Shown in pieces: positions 2,319-23,904 of a stretch of DNA of 64,000 nucleotides. The notes beneath the pieces were generated by a model, which saw only the letters and a list, made by a program, of their open reading frames with translations, searched no databases and had not been told where the DNA came from. Both the position numbers and the translations under genes were made by a program. This stretch comes from Pigmentiphaga aceris (GTDB taxonomy: Bacteria > Pseudomonadota > Gammaproteobacteria > Burkholderiales > Burkholderiaceae_B), in contig NZ_CP043046.1 in assembly GCF_008119665.1 (NCBI RefSeq), positions 2,418,001-2,482,000 of the forward strand, written 5' to 3'. How positions within the stretch are numbered: the first letter of the stretch is position 1; the number at the start of each line of letters is the position of its first letter.

Positions 2319-2668
2319 GCGACATTCAACGCCTTGATTCGAACAAGCGCCTTTCCCGCGTCGTGATCCACAACGGTGTGGTGCATGTGGCTGGTGTGAC
2401 GTCCAGCGACCTGTCGGAAGACATTGGCGTGCAGACGCGTGATGTGTTGACCAAGATTGATGGTTACTTGGCTAGCGCTGGTACGGATAAGTCGCGTTTG
2501 CTGACGGTGCAGATCTGGCTGAAGAATATTGACCGTGATTTCGAGGGCATGAACGCGGTGTGGGGCGAGTGGGCTGATATCAACAATATGCCGACGCGTG
2601 CGACGGGTGAGGTGAAGCTGGCTCGGTCGGAGTTGCTGGTTGAGATTATTGTGTCGGCAGCGAAGTAA
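2315..2668 (+). CDS. RidA/YjgF family enamine/imine deaminase
   Basis: This small protein of 117 residues has the YjgF/RidA fold. The C-terminal signature PTRATGEVKLARSELLVEI carries the conserved arginine that holds the carboxylate of the imine, followed by the invariant glutamate. RidA proteins hydrolyse reactive 2-aminoacrylate-type enamines and imines released by amino-acid enzymes. The ATG at 2315 overlaps the preceding oxidoreductase stop (ATGA) and sits 7 bases after the ribosome site AGGAG at 2303-2307, which rejects the longer upstream start. Linkage to a flavin amine/amino-acid dehydrogenase suggests it clears the imino product of that complex. A terminator-like hairpin follows at 2736. 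Confidence 0.9.
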   Translation: MSDIQRLDSNKRLSRVVIHNGVVHVAGVTSSDLSEDIGVQTRDVLTKIDGYLASAGTDKSRLLTVQIWLKNIDRDFEGMNAVWGEWADINNMPTRATGEVKLARSELLVEIIVSAAK

Positions 2669-2735
2669 GTAGCTTGGCGTTGTGGCGGTCCAGGGCTTGG
2701 CTTTGGTTCGCTGCATTGCGCTTCTGTAGGACTAA

Positions 2736-2761
2736 GGCTCTCTAGTTATGGAGGGCCTTTT
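2736..2761 (+). terminator. Rho-independent terminator after the oxidoreductase-ridA operon
   Basis: GGCTCTCT at 2736-2743 pairs with GGAGGGCC at 2750-2757 through two G-T wobbles, with loop AGTTAT, directly followed by TTTT and then GCTTTT. It sits about 70 bp after the ridA stop in the expected orientation. Confidence 0.7.
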
Positions 2762-2790
2762 GCTTTTGTGATGCTGTTGGTTCTTGCGTT

Positions 2791-3012
2791 GGCGGCGGCG
2801 AGGGTGTCAGCCGTGCCCAGCGGGCTCCGGTCCTGGCTGCGCCAGGACTTCCCGGATTTGAGCAGGTGCGCGGGGCGGTCGCGGACTCGCGGGGTGAACA
2901 AGCCCCGGCTTGTTCACAAGCGTCCCGCTCAAACATGCGCTCCCTTGCCTCCCCGCGCACCTGCTCAAATCCGGCGGGCCCAATGGGCACGGCTGACACC
3001 CTCGCCGCCGCC
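2791..3012. repeat. Nested inverted-repeat element (222 bp) with three levels of perfect palindromy
   Basis: The outer arms are 29-bp perfect inverted repeats at 2791-2819 and 2984-3012, beginning GGCGGCGGCGAGGGTGTCAG on either strand. Inside them lie 24-bp perfect arms at 2852-2875 and 2951-2974 (CCGGATTTGAGCAGGTGCGC...). In the centre is an 11-bp hairpin, GTGAACAAGCC at 2894-2904 with GGCTTGTTCAC at 2907-2917. An extra 8-bp hairpin (GTCCTGGC/GCCAGGAC) sits at 2830-2848 on the left side only. No plausible protein is encoded; the reading frames on both strands simply mirror each other. It could be a non-autonomous repeat of MITE or extragenic-palindrome type, or a large structured transcript end. 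No target-site duplication was recognised. Confidence 0.75.
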
Positions 3013-3464
3013 TTGGAAATGTGGGTTCGGAAGGGGGCTTGGCTGGGGCGTCGGTTGAGTTTGCTGTGTTGTTAGTGGCACAAGCGCTTGGCTTTTCAGG
3101 CTGATGTTGGCCTGCCTGATCTGTCGGCAGTTTGGTGATGGCGTCGTTCGGCCTGAGTCTGCTGTGCTGGTATTCCCGTGAAATCAATCTTGACGAGCGT
3201 GTGAAGACGCCACTAAATTGGTTTCACCATGAGCCGCCGCCTCGTCCTTGTTTCTCTCGATCTCACTGCGAACCAGTCGCAGGCGGGCGCGCGCGCGAAA
3301 TCCAAAAAACAGTCGCTCATCTGACCGGAGCGCGCTGTTCCGTCAGTTGAGCGACGGAACAGCATCAGTAGAAGACGGTCTGCCAATTCCCCCTTACTGT
3401 CTTGAGTACGTTTGCTTCGTTGCTTGCCTGCACGGTTTCCGAATCGGTCGATACGGAGCATGCA
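3013..3464. other. Intergenic stretch upstream of the dapA-like gene with an 11-bp inverted repeat
   Basis: No convincing gene is seen in these 452 bp. A short open frame at 3230-3325 (31 codons, MSRRLVLVSLDLTANQ...) resembles nothing recognisable. A perfect inverted repeat GCTGTTCCGTC (3334-3344)/GACGGAACAGC (3353-3363) with an 8-base spacer lies about 100 bp before the dapA-like start. It may be a regulator operator or an attenuating hairpin. No clear sigma-70 promoter was identified. Confidence 0.45.
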
Positions 3465-4361
3465 ATGCAAGAAACGAAGTATCTCTATCGTGGTATCTGG
3501 CTACCTCTGGTCACCCCTTTTCGCAACGGCGAGGTGGATTACGTCGCCCTGCGACAACTGGTGTCCCATTACCGCTGTAGCGGCCTGACGGGATTGGTGG
3601 TGTGCGGCACCACTGGCGAAGCCGCCGCACTCGATGAAACAGAACAGTTGGCTGTGCTGGATACGGTGCTGACTGAGGCCGGGGATTTGCCGGTCATGAT
3701 GGGTTTGGCGGGCAACAATCTTCGGCATGTGTTGAGCCGTCTCGCCACTATCGGCGAGCGGCCATTGGCTGGGGTTCTGGTACCCGCGCCGTATTACATC
3801 AGGCCGTCACAGGAAGGCTTGAAGGCGTACTTCCGCGCATTGGCCGATAGGTCTCAGGCACCGCTGGTGCTGTATGACATCCCTTACCGAACCGGTGTGA
3901 CGCTAAGCGCCGAGACACTGCTCTCGCTGGCGGACCACGGCAATATTCGCGGTATCAAAGACTGCGGTGGTAACGCTGAAACCACGCGGGCGTTAATCGC
4001 CGATGGCCGTTTGGCAGTCCTGGCCGGAGAAGATCAGCAATTGCTTGCCACGCTGTGCATGGGCGGTCAGGGTGCGATCCTTGCATCAGCGCATATTCGG
4101 CCAGATCTTTTCTCGGCCCTGTGGCGCGCAGTGGCAGACCAACGCCTGCATGTCGCCCGTGACCTTTTCCACGCGTTGATGCCGATGATCAGGCTTATGT
4201 TTGCAGAACCCAACCCGGGACCGGTCAAGGCTTTGCTGGCTGGATACGGCTTGATGTCCGATGAGCTACGTTTGCCCATGACGCCGATTTCAACGGAGCT
4301 CGCTCGACAATTGGCAATCGTTCGTGAGGCTTTGGACTTGGTAGAAGCGGACGCGTTGTAA
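3465..4361 (+). CDS. 4-hydroxy-tetrahydrodipicolinate synthase/N-acetylneuraminate lyase family aldolase (DapA-like)
   Basis: The protein is 298 residues, the usual size for this TIM-barrel class I aldolase family. Visible active-site elements are GTTGEA at 48-53, YDIPYRTGV with catalytic Tyr137, and IKDCGG with the Schiff-base Lys165. True DapA condenses pyruvate with aspartate semialdehyde in lysine synthesis, but the family also contains dehydratases and other pyruvate aldolases. The start chosen is ATG 3465, preceded by GGAG at 3455-3458; the longer frame from 3402 has no ribosome site. It stands alone, and Burkholderiales often carry several dapA paralogues, so a sugar-acid or amino-acid catabolic role is as likely as lysine synthesis. 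Confidence 0.85.
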   Translation: MQETKYLYRGIWLPLVTPFRNGEVDYVALRQLVSHYRCSGLTGLVVCGTTGEAAALDETEQLAVLDTVLTEAGDLPVMMGLAGNNLRHVLSRLATIGERPLAGVLVPAPYYIRPSQEGLKAYFRALADRSQAPLVLYDIPYRTGVTLSAETLLSLADHGNIRGIKDCGGNAETTRALIADGRLAVLAGEDQQLLATLCMGGQGAILASAHIRPDLFSALWRAVADQRLHVARDLFHALMPMIRLMFAEPNPGPVKALLAGYGLMSDELRLPMTPISTELARQLAIVREALDLVEADAL

Positions 4362-4380
4362 AAGGTCAGCCTGATACAGG

Positions 4381-4418
4381 CGGGCGCATGCGCGTCATCA
4401 GTCGCATGCGCTTGCCCG
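4381..4418 (+). terminator. Hairpin after the dapA-like gene, candidate terminator; the rest of 4362-4859 holds no recognised gene
   Basis: CGGGCGCATGCGC (4381-4393) pairs with GCATGCGC-TT-GCCCG (4404-4418) around a short loop, with a TT bulge; TTTGCTCTCGTTT follows, so the U-tract is imperfect. The remaining intergenic DNA up to 4859 shows only shadow frames. The promoter of the exported-protein operon must lie in it but was not located. Confidence 0.45.
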
Positions 4419-4859
4419 TTTGCTCTCGTTTCACGAGATTGGCCGGCGGACCTTGTCACTGTAGAAAAGGCCTCACCGCAGTTGGCCCAGGATCGACGCC
4501 GCCAGCGGGATGTTGCTTGCGCCTTTCGACAGTGTTGCTCCGTCGAGACGCTGACATAAAGCAAGTGACCTGAATGGCGACGAGTTGGTAGAGGCGCTCA
4601 CGCTAGCCCGGACAAGGGGTTCAGCAACTTGGTGATGGTGCACTTGCCTTTGGATGTGTGATTTATCTCCCGCTGGCGGACTTTTATTCGGCCTGACTCG
4701 AAGCTGAAGCTGGCATACTCAGTCGTATCAGTTTGTGAGCGCTGTATTATTAGTTACGACGCCTGAGCGTTACCACTTCTGTTCGTCAGAACCCGGTGGA
4801 TGCGATGTCGCTCTTCTTCGTCCGGCGCGGACCATTAACTCCGATATTGTCTGCCGCAC

Positions 4860-5693
4860 ATGCATATTCGATTCCGATTACGCCGCCCAACTTGCTGGTC
4901 CGCTGCGAAGCGCTGCCTTGTTGCATGGATCACGTTGCCGGCGTTGCTGTTCAGCGCATCTGCCCTGCAGGCTCAAACCACGGCTGGGGACGTGGCCCCC
5001 GAGACGCCGGTAGCGATGGCCGCGCCTGTCAGCGTTGTCGAGCCCGCAACGCGCTTGCCAAAAAAGAAGGTCGATGTGACCGAGAAGGTGTGGTCGCAAT
5101 TCTCGGTGTCGGAGCGTGCTGCGATCATGGCGCACGATATCGAGATCGCCATCATTCCTTCCGCGCAGGTTGGAATCGTCCAATCTGCCCAACTCGTCAA
5201 CCGGTCGCAAGCCGGCACAAACTCGGGCGCGTTGCTCGGTGCGGCAGTTGCGCAATCGATGTATATCGATAACCGTCTGCGCGACGGTGGATCGAACTAT
5301 TCGGCCTCCACGCAGATCGGTATCGGCCTCTTGGGCGCTGCGCTTGGCAGTTCCCTGGATAGTGCACCGGTGCGCAAATTCATCATCAACTACGGCATTC
5401 AGACGCTCGATGGCGAAGTGTCGCAGGTGCTGGTGGAATCTGGCGACGAGTTCGTCGCACCTACCGGGCGCTGCGTTTACCTGCCTGGTGTCGAGCCGGC
5501 ACCGAGCAGCCTGTGCAACAACGACAAGCTGGCCTTCCTTTCCCGCCTGAGTGTGCTTGGCCAGGCGGATCCCAATGTCGTCGTGTCGGAACAACCGCTG
5601 GGAATACAGGTGAATTGCCGCGTCCCCGCAGTCGGGCTGATGAGCCTGGACCGTTCGATGTGTACCCAACTTAACGGAACGATTGAAAAATGA
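4860..5693 (+). CDS. Exported protein of unknown function, first gene of a two-gene operon
   Basis: I do not recognise a family. The 277-residue product has basic residues followed by a hydrophobic segment (about 20-38) ending in SALQAQ, a good signal peptidase I site, so it is predicted to be periplasmic. A glycine/alanine-rich stretch GIGLLGAALGSS (about 152-163) could be a short membrane-inserting or glycine-zipper element. Three cysteines near the C-terminus (in GRCVY, SSLCNN and VNCRV) might form disulfides. The start is uncertain because no strong ribosome site precedes ATG 4860. The stop overlaps the next gene, a lipoprotein, by 4 bp, so the two probably work together in the envelope. 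Confidence 0.65.
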   Translation: MHIRFRLRRPTCWSAAKRCLVAWITLPALLFSASALQAQTTAGDVAPETPVAMAAPVSVVEPATRLPKKKVDVTEKVWSQFSVSERAAIMAHDIEIAIIPSAQVGIVQSAQLVNRSQAGTNSGALLGAAVAQSMYIDNRLRDGGSNYSASTQIGIGLLGAALGSSLDSAPVRKFIINYGIQTLDGEVSQVLVESGDEFVAPTGRCVYLPGVEPAPSSLCNNDKLAFLSRLSVLGQADPNVVVSEQPLGIQVNCRVPAVGLMSLDRSMCTQLNGTIEK

Positions 5694-6397
5694 GTTTTTT
5701 GCGCCCGCTTCTTTCTGTATTGGCTGTGGTGATTCTGGCAGGGTGCGCTGCCAAGCCGCAGTTGACCGGCGAAAGCGCCATGCAACCCAAGCAGTTGTCA
5801 TTCCCCGCGGTAGATGCGCCTGCGGTCGCCGCCAAGGGGGGCGTGGTGCATCTGCGCGCCAACTACCTGGGCAGCTATACCTATCGCCTGCGCGACACTT
5901 TGTCAGTGGGGTTCATGCTGGGTCGACTCTCGGTAACGTCTGCCAACGAGTTGCTGGAAGCTGAGCTGCAAGGCGAGCGCATGTATTGCACGCAGCAACG
6001 TGTGTTCTCGGCCATGTTGGAGGGACCCAGTAAACACGCGTGCTTTGGCCGTGGCCCCACCGACGGCGTCTTCAACCGTGTGCGCGTCGCGCCCGGTGAA
6101 TACTGGTTCACCAAAGACCTGCCGCAAGGCGTGCCCTATGTGAGTACCGAGCGCGGCGTGTCGGTGGACGGCAGTCCGTTGAAGCGCGAAATCTATTTCG
6201 AAGGCAGTGAAAACGGCGTCGTGCTGTTCACCGTCAAAACTTACGACCAGAGTCTGGATGGTCAGGCTCGCATGCGCCCAATCATGTTGCCGGTTCCTAC
6301 CTTGCCCGCCACGGTCGATGTAGATGGCGCGCAGATCTTGATCGAGAAAGTCACGCCCAACGCGCTGACCTATCGACTGAAAAAAGGCTTCCTTTGA
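5690..6397 (+). CDS. Lipoprotein of unknown function
   Basis: The N-terminus is a lipoprotein signal: a hydrophobic core then LAGC with the lipid-accepting Cys at about residue 19. The mature domain (about 215 residues) has no recognised family. Its repeated short hydrophobic/polar alternation suggests a beta-rich fold, and Cys residues in MYCTQQ and KHACFG may pair. ATG 5690 overlaps the stop of the exported-protein gene (ATGA), so translation is coupled. Membrane anchoring and joint synthesis with a periplasmic partner suggest an envelope complex; no functional claim can be made. Confidence 0.75.
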   Translation: MSFLRPLLSVLAVVILAGCAAKPQLTGESAMQPKQLSFPAVDAPAVAAKGGVVHLRANYLGSYTYRLRDTLSVGFMLGRLSVTSANELLEAELQGERMYCTQQRVFSAMLEGPSKHACFGRGPTDGVFNRVRVAPGEYWFTKDLPQGVPYVSTERGVSVDGSPLKREIYFEGSENGVVLFTVKTYDQSLDGQARMRPIMLPVPTLPATVDVDGAQILIEKVTPNALTYRLKKGFL

Positions 6398-7951: not shown

Positions 7952-8593
7952 TTACCAACGTAGCAATCTAGGCCCGATCAACGCACCGAGCAACGCGGGC
8001 AGGCTCATCCCCGCCACGTACCAGACTGCCAGAAACGGCGCCGCCATTTCGGGGCAGTGCAGGGCGTAGATTGCTGCGCCTGAACCCGATGACATCGCGC
8101 CGGCTGCTGCGCCTGCGACGGCGGGCCTGGTGGGGGCCAAGCGCTTGAGTGACCATAGCGCCGCCACAAAGACAGGTGCTGAAATCGCAGTGATGCTGAA
8201 GGCGCAGCTGCGCCATGTCTGACCCATGATCAGCGCGGCGCGGTCTGCTGGAGGAGCGGTCATCAACACAATCACGCCCAATGCCCAGATGAACAATATT
8301 GGGGCAAGCAACCCCATCCAGGTTTGGCGCACGAGCACACCGGGCCGCGCAAGACGTTGCGTGACCGTAAAGCCAAACACGGCAACACAGGCGGGCACCA
8401 GCAGCTTTACCCAGAACATGGGCCATCCGATGGCGGTCGACAAGTCGCTGCGTACGCCGTAACCCATTGCCAGCAACAGGAACGACAGTGGCAGGCTCGC
8501 TGCCAGCGCCAGCCCGATCTGTCGTGATGCCGCCTTGGGCGAGACCGCCTCTACATTTGCGGCCAGCATGGCCACCAGGTTTTCCGTTTTCAT
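7952..8593 (-). CDS. nrsF: NrsF-family (DUF1109) membrane anti-sigma factor
   Basis: The 213-residue protein has a short cytoplasmic N-terminus and about six hydrophobic segments, with the DUF1109 pattern: paired cysteines in RSCAFSI and in [16 protein letters not shown] near the C-terminus. In Caulobacter NrsF holds the ECF factor SigF at the membrane and releases it on metal or redox stress, and its conserved cysteines are central to sensing. Its start overlaps the stop of the sigma gene by 4 bp, the standard sigF-nrsF arrangement. The neighbouring divergent bufferin operon is the expected regulon. Confidence 0.9.
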
Positions 8594-9141
8594 TCGCGAC
8601 TCCGAATTTTCAATGCCAGGGCTTTCAGCCCCCGGTGGATGCCAACCTTGATGGCAGATTCCGACATGCCGGTGCGTTGCGCGGCCTCCACGATCGACAG
8701 GCCTTCCAGCTTTACATGCACGATGGGCAGACGCTGCCGGTCGGGCAGTGTGTCCAACAGTCCGTCCAGGTCACGCTGGGCGTCGCTTGCTTCGGTTGCC
8801 GAATCGGTGAAGACATCCAACTCGTCATCCAAGGGGTCGTGCAACGCTTCTCGTCCGGCCTTGGCGCGCAGCAGATCGATCATCTTGTAGCGGGCAATGG
8901 CATGCACCCAGGCTGTCAGCGGCTGCTCGGGCTGGTAGGTGTGCCGCTGGTTGTGTACGGCAATCAGGCATTCCTGAAGCAGATCTTCCACTTCGTCGGG
9001 CCAGCCAAAAAGCCGACGGCGCAAATACGCGCGCAGGTGTGTGCCAAGTGCCGTCAAAAAGGCGTGATAAGCCTGTGCGTCGCCGCCCAAGCCCTGTATG
9101 AATAGATCGCGAAGTAACTGCTCGGCATCACTTGGCCCCAT
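8590..9141 (-). CDS. sigF: ECF RNA polymerase sigma factor, SigF type
   Basis: The 183-residue product has sigma-70 region 2 ([19 protein letters not shown] and [15 protein letters not shown], about residues 50-95) and region 4 ([20 protein letters not shown], then [20 protein letters not shown], about 130-178). The start is set at 9141 because AGGAGG lies five bases upstream and a perfect GTAACC-N16-CGAA promoter at 9161-9186 would fall inside the coding region of the longer 202-codon frame. It is co-translated with nrsF. SigF proteins direct transcription of bufferin operons in response to excess copper or other metals, and the divergent operon here fits that. Confidence 0.92.
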
Positions 9142-9160
9142 CTGGACCTCCTGATTGGTA

Positions 9161-9186
9161 TTCGTGTCGATCGGGCTTTGGGTTAC
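9161..9186 (-). promoter_or_regulatory. ECF SigF-type promoter of sigF-nrsF (autoregulation)
   Basis: Reading the minus strand, GTAACC (9186-9181) is followed by exactly 16 bases and then CGAA (9164-9161). This equals the Caulobacter SigF consensus GTAACC-N16-CGAA as I know it. The transcript would start a few bases before the AGGAGG ribosome site of sigF. Confidence 0.8.
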
Positions 9187-9230
9187 AGCAAACGCCAAAT
9201 TTATTTATTTATCTTTTTTTCGATGGTGCT

Positions 9231-9256
9231 GTAACCGGCGTGATGCTTGGCCAGAA
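9231..9256 (+). promoter_or_regulatory. ECF SigF-type promoter of the bufferin operon
   Basis: GTAACC at 9231-9236 is followed by 16 bases and AGAA at 9253-9256, one mismatch from GTAACC-N16-CGAA. It points toward bufA with a leader of about 55 bases. A nearby AT-rich run (9197-9220) separates it from the divergent sigF promoter. Confidence 0.7.
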
Positions 9257-9317
9257 CTAACAGATGACTGCGCCGCATTGGCCTGTCGCCAACCATAGTT
9301 TCAGCCGGAGTATCACC

Positions 9318-9617
9318 ATGTCCACCATCACTACCCGTTCGATCGCTGCTACCGCTTTGGCCCTGGGCGCACTCGCTGCAGGGGCCGCAATGGCTGCGGA
9401 TACCAAACCCATGACCGGCAACATGCCCAAGGTCGAGAAGTGCTACGGCGTATCGATGGCCGGCAAGAACGACTGTGCCGCCGGCCCTGGAACCACCTGC
9501 GCCGGCACGTCGAAAATGGACTACCAAGGCAACGCCTGGAAGAACGTGCCCACCGGCACCTGCACCTCGATGAAGACGCCGCGCGGCATGGGCTCGCTCA
9601 CGCCGATCAAGTCCTGA
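9318..9617 (+). CDS. bufA1: BufA1-family bufferin precursor (DUF2282), periplasmic RiPP metallophore
   Basis: The 99-residue precursor has a signal peptide (hydrophobic residues about 9-25, site AMA-AD). The core carries the four-cysteine DUF2282 pattern: C42 in EKCYGV, C53 in GKNDCA, C61 in TTCAG and C82 in TGTC. In bufferins these cysteines are modified by the BufB/BufC enzyme and the exported peptide buffers copper and related metals. The ATG at 9318 has CGGAG seven bases upstream; the upstream extension from 9264 is rejected because it disrupts the signal peptide. It is the first gene of bufA-B-C-doxX and lies about 60 bp after a SigF-type promoter. Confidence 0.92.
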
Positions 9618-9649
9618 TCGTACACGTCAGTCTTCCTGGGCGACCAACC

Positions 9650-10501
9650 ATGCACACCACTCTTACCGCAGGTCTGGGCTTGAAACCCGCGCATTTCGAT
9701 GCTGCCTTGTCCTGCTGCGCGCCGGGCCTGTGGTTTGAGGTGCATCCCGAGAACTATATGGTCGAGGGCGGGCCACGTCTTCGCTGGCTGGACGCCATAC
9801 GAGGATCGCACGCAGTGTCCTTGCATGGTGTGTCCTTGTCGCTGGCCGGCGACGAGGCCCCCGACGCTGCGCACCTGCGACGCTTTGCCGCGTTGGTACA
9901 ACGCATTGAACCCGCGCTGGTGTCCGAACATTTGGCCTGGTCTGCATGGGGGGGCGAGCATTACCCCGACTTGCTGCCGTTTCCGCGCACCACCGCAGCC
10001 TTGCACCGCATTGCTGCCAATATCGAGCAGACGCAGGCAGCGCTGGGCCGCAGTATTGCCATTGAAAATCCCTCGCATTATTTGCAGATCGAACAGCATG
10101 CGTGGGATGAGATCGAATTTCTGACCGAGTTGACCCGTCGCACGGGTTGCAGCTTGTTGCTCGACGTCAATAACGTGTACGTGTCTGCCTGCAATCTGGG
10201 GTTCTCGGCTGAAGCCTATCTCGACCGGTTTCCGGGCTCGGCCGTGGCCGAAATTCACTTGGCCGGATACACGCCAGACCCGACGCTTGGTGCCGCCATG
10301 TTGATCGACTCGCATGATGCTCCCGTGGCACCCGAGGTGTGGGCACTGTATCGCCGCCTGGTCACGCGCATCGGCGCACGGCCCACGCTGGTCGAGCGCG
10401 ATGGCAACGTGCCGCCGTTTGAAGACCTATTGGCCGAGCGCACACAGGCTGCTGATGAGTTGCAGCGGGTGGAGGCTCTTGAAAGCAAGGTGGCAGCATG
10501 A
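9650..10501 (+). CDS. bufB: BufB, MNIO-family (DUF692) multinuclear iron-dependent oxidative enzyme
   Basis: Starting at ATG 9650 the protein has 283 residues, the family norm; the longer frame from 9440 only reads through bufA in another phase. DUF692 TIM-barrel motifs are visible in order: GLGLKPAH, FEVHPENYM, SLHGVSLSL, VSEHLAWS, IENPSHYL, LLLDVNNVYVSACN, EIHLAGY, DSHD and LVERDGN. The His, Asp and Glu residues in them form the two/three-iron site. MNIO enzymes use oxygen to convert peptide cysteines to heterocycles, and with BufC this one should modify BufA1. The bufC ATG overlaps its stop (ATGA). Confidence 0.93.
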   Translation: MHTTLTAGLGLKPAHFDAALSCCAPGLWFEVHPENYMVEGGPRLRWLDAIRGSHAVSLHGVSLSLAGDEAPDAAHLRRFAALVQRIEPALVSEHLAWSAWGGEHYPDLLPFPRTTAALHRIAANIEQTQAALGRSIAIENPSHYLQIEQHAWDEIEFLTELTRRTGCSLLLDVNNVYVSACNLGFSAEAYLDRFPGSAVAEIHLAGYTPDPTLGAAMLIDSHDAPVAPEVWALYRRLVTRIGARPTLVERDGNVPPFEDLLAERTQAADELQRVEALESKVAA

Positions 10502-11262
10502 ATACCGACACCAGCTCGCTCGGCGAATTTCAAAGCGCTTTTGCTGCTGCGCTGTTTGCTGATGACTGCAGCTTCGATCCGATTGCTGCGCTGACGCGGC
10601 AACCCGCTTTTGCGATCTATCGAAACACCGTGCGCAAAGCCTGTATCGATGCGCTGGAAGCAAACTATCCCGCCGTGGCAAGACTGGTGGGCGAAGAATG
10701 GTTTCGTGCAGTTGCTTCCATCTACGCAGTCAGCACGCCGCCGCGTGATGCACGCCTGATGCACTACGGTGCCGATTTCGCAGATTTTCTGGCGAACTTC
10801 GAACCCGCTGCGTCACTGACTTATCTGCCCGATGTGGCTCGACTCGATCGCCTCTGGACCGAAGCGCATGTGGCTGCTGGCACCACCGTTTTGGACGGCA
10901 GCGCATTGGCAAGCCTGCCGCCTGAATCGCTTGGCGCGATGGTGCTTGCGCCGCATCCCGCTGCACGCTGGGCATGGTTCGACAATGAACCTATTCACAC
11001 CATCTGGCACCGCAATCGAGCCGATGAGCACGACACCGCCGACATTGCCTGGCACGGTGAAGGCTCGCTGCTGACCCGGCCGCAAGACAGCGTGTGCTGG
11101 TTTGAACTTGATCGCGGCGATGTTGCATTTCTGAATGCCTGTGAAGCAGGGCAGACGCTTGCGGACGCGGCTTCCGCAAGCTTGCAGGCGCAGCCCGACG
11201 TAGACCTGTCGACACTGCTTGCCAAACTACTGCGCGCCGGTGCCTTCGCCGGTATTCATTGA
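10498..11262 (+). CDS. bufC: BufC, DUF2063-family partner of the MNIO enzyme
   Basis: The 254-residue protein has the DUF2063 N-terminal helical domain (about residues 10-100: FAIYRNTVRKACIDALEANY, then PAVARLVGEEWF) followed by a C-terminal domain similar to the MbnC/BufC type. It recognises the precursor and docks it onto the MNIO enzyme. Its start overlaps the bufB stop by 4 bp, as expected for a stoichiometric heterodimer. A 21-bp gap with a strong ribosome site leads to doxX. Confidence 0.9.
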   Translation: MNTDTSSLGEFQSAFAAALFADDCSFDPIAALTRQPAFAIYRNTVRKACIDALEANYPAVARLVGEEWFRAVASIYAVSTPPRDARLMHYGADFADFLANFEPAASLTYLPDVARLDRLWTEAHVAAGTTVLDGSALASLPPESLGAMVLAPHPAARWAWFDNEPIHTIWHRNRADEHDTADIAWHGEGSLLTRPQDSVCWFELDRGDVAFLNACEAGQTLADAASASLQAQPDVDLSTLLAKLLRAGAFAGIH

Positions 11263-11283
11263 CCCCGCTGGAAGGAGGTCGCC

Positions 11284-11775
11284 ATGACGATCACCACAAG
11301 CCGTATTCCTTCTGCAACCGCTCTTGACGATGCTCCACATGGCCTGCGCGCGCATTGGAACCATGCGGCCGACTGGCTGACTTGGCTGGTGTCGCACAAC
11401 CTACTGGCACTCGCCACCCGGGTGGGTATTGCAGCAACCTTCTTTTTATCCGGCAGGACCAAGGTCGAGGGATTTCTGACCCTAACCGAAGGCACCTACG
11501 AGCTGTTCCGCACGGAATACAAAGTGCCGCTGTTGCCGCCCGAGATTGCTGCCCATCTTGCGGCCTACGCCGAGCATCTGTTTCCCGTGCTGCTGGTGCT
11601 TGGGCTGTTCACGCGAGTGTCGGCGCTGGCCTTGCTTGGCATGACCTTCGTCATTCAGGTGTTCGTCTATCCCGACGCATGGCCGACGCATCTGTCCTGG
11701 GCGGCGATGTTGCTGTACTTGGTTGGGCGTGGCGGTGGGGCGTTTTCGCTGGATAGAGTGCTGCGTATTGCCTGA
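11284..11775 (+). CDS. bufD: DoxX-family membrane protein of the bufferin operon
   Basis: The 163-residue protein has four hydrophobic segments (about 42-60, 85-108, 110-130 and 137-155) and the DoxX-type first helix with [19 protein letters not shown]. DoxX proteins are small quinone-reactive membrane proteins that often close bufferin operons, where they may supply or accept electrons; the exact role is not established. ATG 11284 follows an AAGGAGG ribosome site by six bases. A hairpin at 11863-11901 ends the operon against the convergent transporter gene. Confidence 0.88.
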
Positions 11776-19637: not shown

Positions 19638-19831
19638 AACTACGGCGTGATGCCGAATAAACTAAGACTGAGTTTCTTGAGGTTGCTTGGGTCGTGGGTG
19701 ATAATGGATTTTATTTTCCGGTGGGGGCGCCGAGTCGAATTTCCTATTTCCGTTGCTTCCGTTGATAGCGGGAGGCATTATCAAAGTGTAGCCGGTTTGG
19801 CTGATTGGAATACGTCTTGGGGGGAGGTGAT

Positions 19832-21658
19832 ATGCGCTTGGAGGCTGTTAGCATTAGCAATTTCCGCTGCTACGCAGAAGAGATTCGAGTCGAGCTCGAC
19901 GATTTGACAACTTTTGTCGGTCGAAATGATATAGGAAAGTCAACGATCCTAGAGGCATTGGAGATATTCTTTAATGGGGATATCGTGTCAATGGAGCAAG
20001 GTGATGCACACGTTCACAATGCCGATAAGAATGTACTAATCACCTGCGAGTTTTCGGACCTCCCGCGCACGCTTACCCTGGACGCTGGCGCTGAGACAAC
20101 CTTAGCCGATGAATACTTGTTGGCTGAGGATGGGCGGCTGAAGATCCGGAAAATTTTCGATTGTTCAAACAAAAAGCCGTCTGCAGATGTCGTAGTCATC
20201 GCTTACCATCCTACCGCTGCCGATTGTGGAAATTTGCTAGAACTAAAAGAAAAAGACCTTCAGAAGAAAGTCAAGGATCTCGGACTGAAAGTTGCTTTGA
20301 AAGGAAATCCGGGAATGAGGCGCGCCATCTGGGAAGCCGTCGGTGATTTGCAACTTCAAGAGGTCGTTATTCCGGTAGGTCGTTCTAAGGAGGATGTGAA
20401 GCGGATCTGGGAGCAAATCGACCCACACTTGCCCATATTTGCGCTCTTCCAGAGCGATCGGAGTAGCAGAGATTCCGACGATGAGGTCCAAAGTCCTATG
20501 AAAGCCGCAGTGGCCGCTGCCATTGCGGAGGTTCAGGATGACATTGCACGAATTCAAGCCAAGGTGCGCGAGAAGGCGGAAGAGATTGCGCTAAATACGC
20601 ACGCTGCATTAGCCACAATCGATCCAAATCTAGCCCGCGAACTTGTGCCTGAGTTCACCCCACCTACCGCATCAAAATGGCAAGGTCTATTTGCCCTTGG
20701 CCTAAATACCGACGATGGAATACCGTTGAATAAGCGAGGTAGCGGTGTGCGGCGGTTGGTTCTGGTGAGCTTTTTTAAGGCAGAGGCGGAGCGTCGTCTT
20801 AAGACCAGCGCTAAACGTAGCATCATCTACGCCATCGAGGAGCCGGAGACCGCGCAGCACCCGAACAATCAGCGCATTCTCATTGAGTCATTTAAAGCGC
20901 TAGCAGAAGATTCTGGTTGCCAAGTGCTCTTGACAACTCACAGCCCCGGGTTTGCTTCCTCGCTTCCCCAGGAGAGTATCCGATATGTTTCGCGCGATTC
21001 TGAGACAAAAAAGCCCGAGATCCAGTCCGGAGTCGACGTGTTCGACCAAGTTGCAGCAGCACTTGGAGTAACGCCTGATAGTAGAGTTCAAATTTTAGTC
21101 TGTGTCGAAGGACCCACCGACGTTCTCGCTTTGAAAGCCCTGTCCAAAGCACTGCATCAATCTGACTCGACCTTACCAAACCTGGCCCTTGATGGACGCC
21201 TGGCCTTCGTTGTTCTTGGCGGTGGCACTCTGGAACATTGGGTCAATCAGCATTACTTGCGTGGCCTAAATAAACGCGAAGTGCATATCTACGATGCAGA
21301 CGTACCTGATTATGCTGAGTCAGTAAAGCAGGTCAATGCGCGAGGAGACGGCTCTTGGGCGGTGATTACTGCCAAGCACGAAATTGAAAGTTATTTGCAT
21401 AAAGCTGCTATAGCGCAGGCCTTTAGCTTTGCCATCGAGGTTACGGACCATCCAGTTGGGGGTAAAGCAACACCCAAGGTTTTTGGAGAAGCGTTTGCGG
21501 CACACGTCGGCCATGGAAAACCTCTCAAAGACTCCACCGCAAAAAGAAAGCTTGCTCAACAAGCATTTCCATATATGACAGCGGCAATGCTAGATGAAAG
21601 AGATCCAAATGGAGAGGTTCGCGAATGGTTTCGTCGAATGGGAGCAATGCTTAGTTAG
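19832..21658 (+). CDS. OLD-family ATP-dependent nuclease (ABC-type ATPase fused to Toprim)
   Basis: The 608-residue protein has an N-terminal SMC/RecF-type ATPase with Walker A GRNDIGKST (30-38), a signature-like GSGVRRLVL, Walker B IIYAIEEPET with Glu336/337, and the H-loop LLTTHSPGF. A C-terminal Toprim domain follows with the acidic centres VEGPTD (Glu426), YDADV (Asp488, Asp490) and KHEIESYL. OLD nucleases such as P2 Old and Gabija GajA act in phage exclusion. No UvrD-like GajB follows, so this is a stand-alone type. ATG 19832 is backed by GGGGAGGTGA. Codon use is AT-richer than the core genome, consistent with recent transfer. Confidence 0.9.
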   Translation: MRLEAVSISNFRCYAEEIRVELDDLTTFVGRNDIGKSTILEALEIFFNGDIVSMEQGDAHVHNADKNVLITCEFSDLPRTLTLDAGAETTLADEYLLAEDGRLKIRKIFDCSNKKPSADVVVIAYHPTAADCGNLLELKEKDLQKKVKDLGLKVALKGNPGMRRAIWEAVGDLQLQEVVIPVGRSKEDVKRIWEQIDPHLPIFALFQSDRSSRDSDDEVQSPMKAAVAAAIAEVQDDIARIQAKVREKAEEIALNTHAALATIDPNLARELVPEFTPPTASKWQGLFALGLNTDDGIPLNKRGSGVRRLVLVSFFKAEAERRLKTSAKRSIIYAIEEPETAQHPNNQRILIESFKALAEDSGCQVLLTTHSPGFASSLPQESIRYVSRDSETKKPEIQSGVDVFDQVAAALGVTPDSRVQILVCVEGPTDVLALKALSKALHQSDSTLPNLALDGRLAFVVLGGGTLEHWVNQHYLRGLNKREVHIYDADVPDYAESVKQVNARGDGSWAVITAKHEIESYLHKAAIAQAFSFAIEVTDHPVGGKATPKVFGEAFAAHVGHGKPLKDSTAKRKLAQQAFPYMTAAMLDERDPNGEVREWFRRMGAMLS

Positions 21659-22097
21659 AGAGCCAATTGGGGGGGGCTTGGCAGTAAGTGCCGTGTTTGA
21701 GTCATGCGCGTCGTATGCTTCGGGCGAATTTGTCAAGTCATTCCCGTCGATATGATTCTAGTTTTTTGGCAGTAATAATGTCGTCAAGCCGATCAGCGGT
21801 TCACGAGATCGTCCGAGAAAAAACCGGACGGGGTTTATGCCGACAAGTATACGACGACAAGATGTACAGTAAAGCGCTACGGCGACGAGCATTCAAGACA
21901 GAGTTGCGCGACGAGTATCGAAAACAGCAAGCGACTCGGACGTCGTCTTTATCTGTCGAACGAAAGCCCGCGTTTGATCCCCAAGGGGAGCATAATATGC
22001 GGGTCGGCTTCGAGCGCCAACCAGAAAGGCGCAGGAACCATTGGAATGCAGCACTTGCGAATGTTGTACTTTTAGAGACTAGCCACTTGCGCGCTAT
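21659..22097. other. Non-coding or unassigned stretch inside the island
   Basis: This stretch separates the OLD gene from the oppositely oriented nuclease-like gene. An open frame on the plus strand (21688-22305) runs antisense through the last 208 bp of that gene and has no ribosome site. Its first half cannot be excluded as a remnant but is not recognisable. No repeat or terminator was evident. Confidence 0.4.
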
Positions 22098-22715
22098 CTA
22101 TCCTAAAGTCCCTTTTATCGCAATTCCTCTCGGTATTTGTAGATCGTCGAACTTTGCGGAAGTTATATTCCGATCTCCAGTTGTACACCTGAATAGTTCT
22201 AAGAAGAACCGATATGATGTCAGGTTGCAAGAGTCATGCAGAATACGGCTGCTTGCTCCTGCGATCTTCGTCGCAGAAGCACATCGCATCTCTGATTTTG
22301 TATAGTTAAAAACGAACGAAGCCGGTGTAATGCTAAGCATTTTGTCGCACTGGGCGGCGAGTTCTTTGTGGCTTGCAACGGTCATCGTTGCACCATCATC
22401 AATCCTCTTTGATTGAATAAGAACGCCTTTTGAGTAAGTTAGCTGGCGTGTCTTAATTGAAACGTGAAACAGCATATCGGCGCCAGCTTTCTTCTCTTGT
22501 GCTGCCACTCCTTTACGGTGCCGAAGAATGGATGAGGACCATGAGACGCCACCAATCTTCTGGTCAAATGCGGAGTCAAGCCGACCTATTAATGCCCCTG
22601 TGATGTCGTCTTCGTCGGTGATTAGTTCATCAGCATACTTCTGCATAGCAGCGCTGACGGCACGATCTGCGGCATGTGCCGCTGCACGAAAAGCTTCTTC
22701 GAGCCTGTTTTCCAT
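22098..22715 (-). CDS. Candidate PD-(D/E)xK-like nuclease or restriction-fold protein, 205 aa
   Basis: No named family is recognised. After an N-terminal helical region comes an acidic stretch ITDEDDITGALIGRLD (residues 32-47). It is followed by GADMLFHV with Asp80 and, 17 residues later, GVLIQSKR with Gln101-x-Lys103. The order acidic helix, D, then (E/Q)xK on a beta strand is that of restriction-endonuclease folds. The segment ELAAQCDKMLSITPASFVFN is a further helix-strand unit. It is the last of five minus-strand genes of the cluster and converges with the OLD nuclease. The nuclease assignment is inference only. Confidence 0.6.
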   Translation of the reverse strand: MENRLEEAFRAAAHAADRAVSAAMQKYADELITDEDDITGALIGRLDSAFDQKIGGVSWSSSILRHRKGVAAQEKKAGADMLFHVSIKTRQLTYSKGVLIQSKRIDDGATMTVASHKELAAQCDKMLSITPASFVFNYTKSEMRCASATKIAGASSRILHDSCNLTSYRFFLELFRCTTGDRNITSAKFDDLQIPRGIAIKGTLG

Positions 22716-22765
22716 CTAAGCTCCAAGGCAAGCCGAGTATTCACACGGCGTCAATAAATTGATTT

Positions 22766-23011
22766 TTATTGCTTGAGTCGATTTAATTTATCTTTTGTCA
22801 ACGCTGCTGCATATTTACGATTTTCCTCTGACGCAGGTAGTTCTTCAACTGCACCGTTAGGGAAAATTAACTGAATAATTTCCTCGTAGTCTGACGGGTT
22901 TCCTGATTGGTCGACCGATTTGGCTCGGAATTTTCCCGTGATGATGGCTGTTATGTTTTTTGCGGAAATCGGGCCAATATTTGTGTGTTCGAACTGATAT
23001 TTTTCGGACAT
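22766..23011 (-). CDS. Small protein of unknown function, 81 aa
   Basis: It begins MSEKYQFEHTNIGPISAKNI and ends in a basic helix KDKLNRLKQ. The composition is soluble, with a likely beta-rich first half (ITAIITGKFRAKSVD). It lies 50 bp upstream of the nuclease-like gene and 122 bp downstream of the HNH gene, all on the minus strand, so it is probably part of the same transcript. A partial ribosome site TGGAAA precedes ATG 23011. It might be an accessory or inhibitor protein of a neighbouring nuclease, but nothing in the sequence proves that. Confidence 0.5.
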   Translation of the reverse strand: MSEKYQFEHTNIGPISAKNITAIITGKFRAKSVDQSGNPSDYEEIIQLIFPNGAVEELPASEENRKYAAALTKDKLNRLKQ

Positions 23012-23133
23012 AAGTTTCCAGGTAAAAGTCTAATTTTTGATGTCTGTCGAATGAGCTATATGTTAGTCTGTTTTCGGATCGGCAAATAATTTAATTTGAG
23101 ATGCCTGTTGATATATAAAAGCCCATTTTTTTA

Positions 23134-23904
23134 TCAGCCAATAAAAGATGCCAGATGAACTTCTTGGTAGTTGTATTTCAGGAACTGCAAAAGGCCGTCG
23201 TAGCTCTTAAGGAGTTTGTTGAGGCAATCCTCAATATCTTGATTTACTTCCTGTCGCTGCTCATAGGTCAGCTTTCTTGATATGTGTAAATTTTTAAAGT
23301 CACCATTACTAATCTTATACAAGGCACTGTGATTGTAGCTGGTTGCCCGAACGTAGTTGTTTAAGTGGCAGAGATCAGACCAGAATGCGTAGAAGTGACC
23401 TTCTAAGTGGCTGTCAAAGAAAGGGCGGCAGTGCGGAAAGTCTTTGCCGAAATTCTCACAGACCTCTTCCACGGTAAAGAGATTCATGTTGAAGATTGCA
23501 GGCAATCCGTCCACTAGGGCAGGCGTTTGGATAAGGGGTAAGTATCTCATTAATCCCACAAGCGCACCAATATCCATCGATCGCGCTTGCGTTCGATGCT
23601 TGAACACTTGACTCACGTAGTATTCGTGCTCATTTTTTAAACGATGCAACTTTTCTGGCGGATAGTTGGCTTCATCGTTATCAACCTCTGTGTGGTGATT
23701 CGGGCACAAAAGAATAAGATTTTCGTAGTCGTCTCTATGTCCATTAAACGGAAGATCGCCGCGCGCCCCTCCAGTATTTTTGGCGATGATGTGCGCCATC
23801 TCTCCAATTTTCACGCGGTGCTTAACGACAGGCTCCTTGCAAATGCTGCACCGCCCCGCTGCCAATCCAAATAGTTTGGACACCGTATGAATTGTTATGG
23901 CCAC
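23134..23904 (-). CDS. HNH endonuclease-domain protein with C-terminal domain of unknown function
   Basis: Residues 19-75 form a zinc-bound HNH module: CSIC (19-22), MAHIIA with His38, then NLILLCPNHHTEVD with Cys67, His70 and His71. This is the pattern of HNH effector domains in bacterial defence proteins. The remaining 170 residues are helical, contain repeated aromatic/His positions and are not recognised; they may sense or bind a partner. The only usable start is GTG 23904. Codon use is AT-rich like the OLD gene. Its place in the minus-strand nuclease cluster suggests a role against invading DNA. Confidence 0.75.
   Translation of the reverse strand: MAITIHTVSKLFGLAAGRCSICKEPVVKHRVKIGEMAHIIAKNTGGARGDLPFNGHRDDYENLILLCPNHHTEVDNDEANYPPEKLHRLKNEHEYYVSQVFKHRTQARSMDIGALVGLMRYLPLIQTPALVDGLPAIFNMNLFTVEEVCENFGKDFPHCRPFFDSHLEGHFYAFWSDLCHLNNYVRATSYNHSALYKISNGDFKNLHISRKLTYEQRQEVNQDIEDCLNKLLKSYDGLLQFLKYNYQEVHLASFIG

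Follow-up and report, generated by a model that had tools for sequence, protein, structure and literature searches.

Among characterized systems, the closest to the gene cluster examined here are the sigF-nrsF genes of Caulobacter vibrioides/crescentus (CC3253-CC3252) with the operon CC3254-CC3257, and the rpoQ-rsqA/gigPABT locus of Cupriavidus metallidurans CH34. Both belong to the Buf1 (DUF2282) class of bufferins, in which the two central cysteines of the peptide are reported to be modified and the outer pair to be joined in a disulphide; the Buf1 that has been studied binds both Cu(I) and Cu(II); sigma-factor and NrsF genes occur in Buf1 but not in Buf2 clusters (PMC12452194), and the term captophorins groups these products (PMC13097082). 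We analysed a stretch of 64,000 nucleotides from Pigmentiphaga aceris (NZ_CP043046.1, positions 2,418,001 to 2,482,000; hereafter the window), of which positions 7952-11775 hold six open, uninterrupted frames: sigF-nrsF, for an extracytoplasmic function (ECF) sigma factor and its anti-sigma factor, diverge from bufA-bufB-bufC-doxX. All things considered, this is quite probably a horizontally acquired Buf1-type bufferin locus that serves as a self-contained copper-stress module.

The Caulobacter locus has the same genes in the same divergent order, with the NrsF cysteines, a DUF2282 precursor and promoters on both operons that resemble those found here. The copper- and gold-inducible locus of C. 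metallidurans, also betaproteobacterial, has the same six genes in the same orientation with both promoter-like sites present between rpoQ and gigP; its proteins are 65% (BufB), 55% (BufA) and 42% (NrsF) identical to those of the window over the aligned part. This locus is carried by a chromid, and its host strain has many copper systems. In Sinorhizobium meliloti, the ECF16 factor of the RpoE7-EcfR7 pair likewise activates a divergent four-gene operon, SMb20527-SMb20530, orthologous to CC3254-CC3257 and absent from a close relative; it differs in that no inducer is reported to have been found there (PMC6180224). The nearest by sequence are buf loci of Variovorax, Polaromonas and Ramlibacter. 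Among the best 80 of 489 confirmed related loci, a sample that favours close relatives, BufB is 70-77% identical in the 17 loci L002-L018 (L016 being an unclassified bin), and SigF is 71-82% identical in the seven Variovorax, Polaromonas and Ramlibacter loci compared; this group is the probable donor. The locus is of a known kind, ordinary for its family and intact. A preliminary description of this DNA had rightly identified a bufferin locus beside an ECF SigF/NrsF switch, with all six genes in place, but had presented the betaproteobacterial version as new; gigPABT beside rpoQ-rsqA is the same locus, a Cupriavidus Buf1 bufferin has already been modelled (PMC12452194), and databases already label some close relatives 'BufA1 family periplasmic bufferin-type metallophore'.

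Each of the six frames matched the expected family, and all Pfam matches at the locus exceeded the curated cut-offs (Table 1), including those to the DUF2282, DUF2063 and MNIO-family (MbnB_TglH_ChrH) models. BufB was further recognized as 'MNIO family bufferin maturase' by NCBIfam NF050167 (355.9 bits; cut-off 310) and matched the solved structures 3BWW and MbnB in a sequence search, and SigF fell into the NCBIfam subfamily PRK12536 (300.5 bits; cut-off 250). The maturase and its DUF2063 partner are encoded in the operon of bufA. In single-sequence searches of solved structures, BufC had no match and BufA only three chance-like ones (E 0.15-0.19); Rfam and tRNA searches of the window returned no matches. 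The coupling overlaps noted earlier are indeed present, 4 bases each, between sigF and nrsF (8590-8593) and between bufB and bufC (10498-10501). For sigF, the ATG at 9141, preceded by AGGAGG, is the likely start rather than the in-frame TTG at 9198, since the latter lies upstream of the sigF-side promoter-like site; the start of bufB is at 9650. The genome contains one DUF2282 match and one NrsF match. A single BufA, as noted before, is the usual state in the related loci seen.

Table 1. Genes and predicted promoters of the P. aceris bufferin locus (window coordinates)
Feature	Position	Strand	Description
nrsF	7952..8593	-	Membrane anti-sigma factor; Pfam NrsF 232 bits, E 7.7e-69
sigF	8590..9141	-	ECF sigma factor; Pfam Sigma70 region 2 43.8 bits, region 4 47.2 bits
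Predicted sigF promoter	9161..9187	-	TGTAACC-N16-CGAA, exact fit to ECF16 consensus
Predicted bufA operon promoter	9230..9256	+	TGTAACC-N16-AGAA, one mismatch to CGAA
bufA	9318..9617	+	99 residues, Buf1 bufferin precursor; Pfam DUF2282 (PF10048) 87.1 bits, cut-off 22.4
bufB	9650..10501	+	MNIO maturase; Pfam MbnB_TglH_ChrH 322 bits
bufC	10498..11262	+	DUF2063 partner protein; Pfam DUF2063 80.9 bits, E 8.2e-23
doxX	11284..11775	+	DoxX-family membrane protein, last gene of the operon; Pfam DoxX 67.2 bits

The arrangement of the locus is more than chance, because in 66 of the best 80 related loci nrsF and sigF share a strand and bufA, bufB and bufC lie on the opposite one (SigF matches below 40 bits were disregarded); a DoxX gene was detected as well in 62 of the 80. 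Within the 176-base gap between sigF and bufA we found two back-to-back promoter-like sites of ECF16 type, the published consensus being (T/C)GTAAC-N17-CGAA as quoted in PMC8315932. Judged by its anti-sigma partner and this motif, SigF is of ECF16 type. Sites fitting GTAAC-N17-(C/A)GA were then counted in the related loci, leaving out the 14 of 80 without a detected SigF-BufA divergent pair, some of them on short contigs; the resulting 68 rows include the window twice (L001 is the same place), and the counts refer to the 66 others. Of these 66, 64 had the bufA-side site, 62 the sigF-side site and 60 both; mononucleotide shuffling, which preserves base composition alone, gave expected totals of 0.36 and 0.58 per side over the 68 rows. 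On the bufA side the consensus is tighter than on the sigF side, reading CGAA-N-TA (T in 64/64, A in 61/64), and the promoter-like pair is kept across beta-, gamma- and alphaproteobacterial loci. This pair bears on whether RpoQ/SigF directly controls gig, a control that the Cupriavidus papers (one of them PMC11022561) treat as assumed and not demonstrated; a conserved promoter-like sequence, however, does not replace an experiment.

Variations on this arrangement occur among the relatives. A second SigF-type motif lies ahead of that of bufA, beside sigF, in four loci (L026 at 4159, L029 at 4159, L032 at 4209 and L039 at 4110). Some betaproteobacterial loci have, between sigF and bufA, an additional frame whose small, exported-looking product contains repeated FPSAA-like motifs (L032 4213-4575, L026 4175-4540, L039 4106-4495 and L022 2892-3320); two of these frames were tested and had no Pfam match. 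A second NrsF gene on the other side of sigF, on the same strand, is found in five of the 80 loci, from three Herbaspirillum, one Collimonas and one unclassified Burkholderiales bin (L040, L062, L068, L069 and L076, the last with a TetR-like frame between). In L040, the NrsF frames span 2488-3180 and 3839-4543, and the extra copy matches Pfam NrsF with 236.9 bits. The extra copies retain both conserved cysteines and read YC.EM in place of HCPEM; a sigma factor with two anti-sigma factors may respond to two inducers.

BufA has exactly four cysteines (42, 53, 61 and 82) and no histidine. The preliminary description had assigned these cysteines to a leader peptide; their number and positions are correct, but by eye they follow a signal-peptide-like N-terminus, a hydrophobic stretch ending in AMA, and would lie in the exported part. 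All four are invariant among the rows covering them, and their spacing of 11-8-21 recurs in 98 of 99 distinct loci, the window counted, so the idea that the cysteine pattern is unusual was rejected. The exception, L086, has a second gap longer by one residue and further cysteines in its frame; no BufA was found in L030. A Buf2 bufferin was ruled out by the four cysteines (six or twelve in Buf2) and by a score of 19.7 bits against a BufA2 cut-off of 60. In BufB, residues E30, H32, H59, H94, E139, D172, H203, D220, H222, E249 and D251 are invariant in the covering rows, D251 of the ERDGN motif being kept in 100 of 100. NrsF has C130 in 67/67 and C180 in 66/66 rows with a letter there, matching by position C131 and C181 of Caulobacter NrsF, mutation of either of which raises expression (PMC3511200).

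Based on these relatives, we propose a model in which excess periplasmic copper, or possibly gold, silver, cadmium or chromate, would disturb the two conserved cysteines of NrsF and so free SigF, which would then activate both back-to-back promoters, the one for its own gene and the one for bufABC-doxX. Together with BufC, BufB would turn C53 and C61 of the BufA precursor into thiooxazoles in the cytoplasm; after export by the Sec machinery, C42 and C82 would form a disulphide, and the mature peptide would bind copper in the periplasm. The preliminary description had called both the metal and the processing of the cysteines unknown; the processing can, however, be predicted from Buf1 (PMC12452194), and copper induces both studied relatives. 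In Caulobacter, copper induced the SigF regulon in all conditions tested and a sigF mutant was copper-sensitive (PMC8224329), and the gig genes of C. metallidurans are induced by copper and gold; copper is the predicted inducer in P. aceris.

Two other views of the inducer were weighed against copper. It is unlikely that oxidants (reactive chlorine or oxygen) are the main signal for the switch and that the bufferin belongs to a periplasmic oxidant response. ECF16 pairs of Brucella (BcrS/AbcS) and Azospira suillum do react to hypochlorite or reactive chlorine, and they are linked to genes for a methionine-rich peptide and methionine sulfoxide reductase (PMC8315932, PMC4623255). However, no methionine sulfoxide reductase gene is present at the locus, and examination of 3462 bases at the single PF00174 match (MsrP/YedY family) in the genome showed no fitting site; the idea that this msrP-family gene carries the promoter motif was rejected. 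Moreover, the Caulobacter SigF targets are reported to rise at most twofold with two peroxides, paraquat or diamide (PMC3511200), but are raised by copper (PMC8224329). That the module buffers mainly another metal, such as gold, silver or cadmium, is quite improbable: the gig genes owe their name to gold induction, relatives answer to gold, silver, cadmium and chromate (PMC3511200 and PMC8224329 among the sources), and MerC-bufferin fusions are known (PMC12452194), but the copper-sensitive Caulobacter sigF mutant is described as unchanged in chromate and cadmium sensitivity (PMC8224329), and it is copper that the studied Buf1 binds.

Several results count against the copper-module reading. At the level of gene assignment, three proteins stayed below the stricter NCBIfam cut-offs: NrsF scored 141.1 bits (NrsF equivalog cut-off 300), BufC 23.4 bits (HvfC, 142) and DoxX 48.5 bits (HvfX, 80). 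The bufA-side site departs from the published consensus, having A instead of C as the first base of its -10 element; among the 64 matched loci this base is A in three and C in 61. The published consensus is also not enriched genome-wide, with 10 matches against 30 for the control. Deletion of rpoQ in C. metallidurans raised gig expression in metal-treated cells, which its authors attribute to compensation by other sigma factors; rpoQ-rsqA reportedly depends on the housekeeping sigma factor; and removing gig by itself is described as without effect on copper resistance in the parent strain, with Gig contributing in some multiple mutants. Caulobacter sigF was reported as not strongly autoregulated under chromate (PMC3511200), and for the operon that S. 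meliloti RpoE7 activates, peroxide, cadmium and chromate reportedly gave no induction (PMC6180224). Together with the mismatch, the rpoQ deletion lends some substance to a scheme in which SigF acts on its own gene or on others, and bufA is driven by the housekeeping polymerase or a copper regulator. It is also favoured by seven Variovorax loci (L006, L008, L011, L012, L014, L021 and L028) which, unlike the locus of P. aceris, have a buf operon with neither an NrsF match nor a SigF match of at least 40 bits in the roughly 5 kb fetched before bufB. We nevertheless give this scheme only a small chance, given the conservation of the site before bufA and the direct promoter evidence in Caulobacter (PMC3511200).

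How far the SigF regulon extends was examined with the strict pattern TGTAACC-N16-(C/A)GAA, which degenerate promoters would escape. The 6.17-Mb genome contains two occurrences, both of them in the sigF-bufA gap, while the reversed pattern used as control occurs once. Among the ten matches to the published consensus, one is the sigF-side site, three are mutually identical, of which the one examined (L177) falls in 23S rRNA, and six fall within open frames 337 to 545 codons long, which do not prove coding in a GC-rich genome; the bufA-side site is missing from the ten because of its mismatch. Since the strict motif is confined to the gap, the regulon may, within the limits of pattern matching, be the locus alone. 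Caulobacter differs in this respect, its SigF also controlling a second DUF2282 operon and a YedY gene (PMC3511200), whereas P. aceris has one NrsF, one DUF2282 match and two strict motifs.

The locus is informative about transfer as well as control. DUF2282 had no match in any of the 10 other genomes of the genus, and the locus as a genus trait was therefore rejected (present in 1 of 11 genomes). In the family, 25 of 267 other genomes contain DUF2282, and 34 of 267 contain BufB relatives (E <= 1e-20) of 33-52% identity; in Variovorax, by comparison, BufB is up to 77% identical among the best 80 loci. Mfd, encoded 2.4 kb beyond the locus, shows the opposite pattern: identity is 82-83% for five congeners, 71-78% for five further members of the family and 62-63% for five Variovorax, Ramlibacter and Polaromonas genomes (Comamonadaceae), the Xenophilus match coming in two pieces of 64% and 59%. 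We also built a maximum-likelihood BufB tree of 111 rows, in which the best 80 hits were joined by C. metallidurans and by 29 of the 36 matches from the own family. The window falls within a 30-row clade (support 99/97), where 26 of the 29 remaining rows carry the label Comamonadaceae, and all 29 own-family rows stand across a 100/100 branch from it; the program flagged long branches among these own-family rows, and the tree does not resolve which row of the clade is sister to the window. The simplest reading of these sequences is horizontal acquisition from a Variovorax-like (Comamonadaceae) donor, and the different ancestries of BufB and Mfd point to joint movement of the switch with the copper-buffering operon.

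Two findings speak against acquisition: the GC content runs through the locus without a step, and the comparison with five congeners, one of whose stretches ends at 7151 bases (contig end), yielded no insertion boundary. Of the 16 window proteins between 47 and 17709, only SerB and Mfd match the corresponding stretches of the five congeners, which prevented an empty insertion site from being delineated; the left flank is variable in the genus. An even GC content and a missing boundary imply that the transfer is not recent or cannot be delimited. Vertical inheritance, with loss in the other sampled members of the genus and family, would fit a locus whose GC content equals that of its surroundings, and other buf loci do exist in the family. 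We regard it as very unlikely, in view of the low identity and the tree position of the own-family BufB proteins and the opposite pattern of Mfd. In addition, 19 own-family loci showed no NrsF match and no SigF match of at least 40 bits in their short flanks, which cover about 1.2-1.4 kb before the BufA frame in 18 of them and only 38 bases in L098. With horizontal acquisition as the preferred reading, we lean towards regarding the six genes as a mobile 'one-locus regulon', in which the only two genomic promoters of SigF would be its own and that of the bufferin operon, and which would move between Burkholderiales families with its regulation intact and independently of the stress network of the host.

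Elsewhere in the window, two overlapping frames at 4860-6397 encode exported-looking proteins of 277 and 235 residues, neither with a Pfam match, the second of which appears lipoprotein-like by eye. The GC content drops to 0.45-0.51 between about 20 and 26 kb. An AAA_15/OLD-type ATPase is encoded at 19805-21658, with AriA as its best PADLOC match, followed by Old and GajA, and an HNH protein at 23134-23904 has an N-terminal match to SAVED-HNH effectors, suggesting a defence island near ispD (19805-23904).

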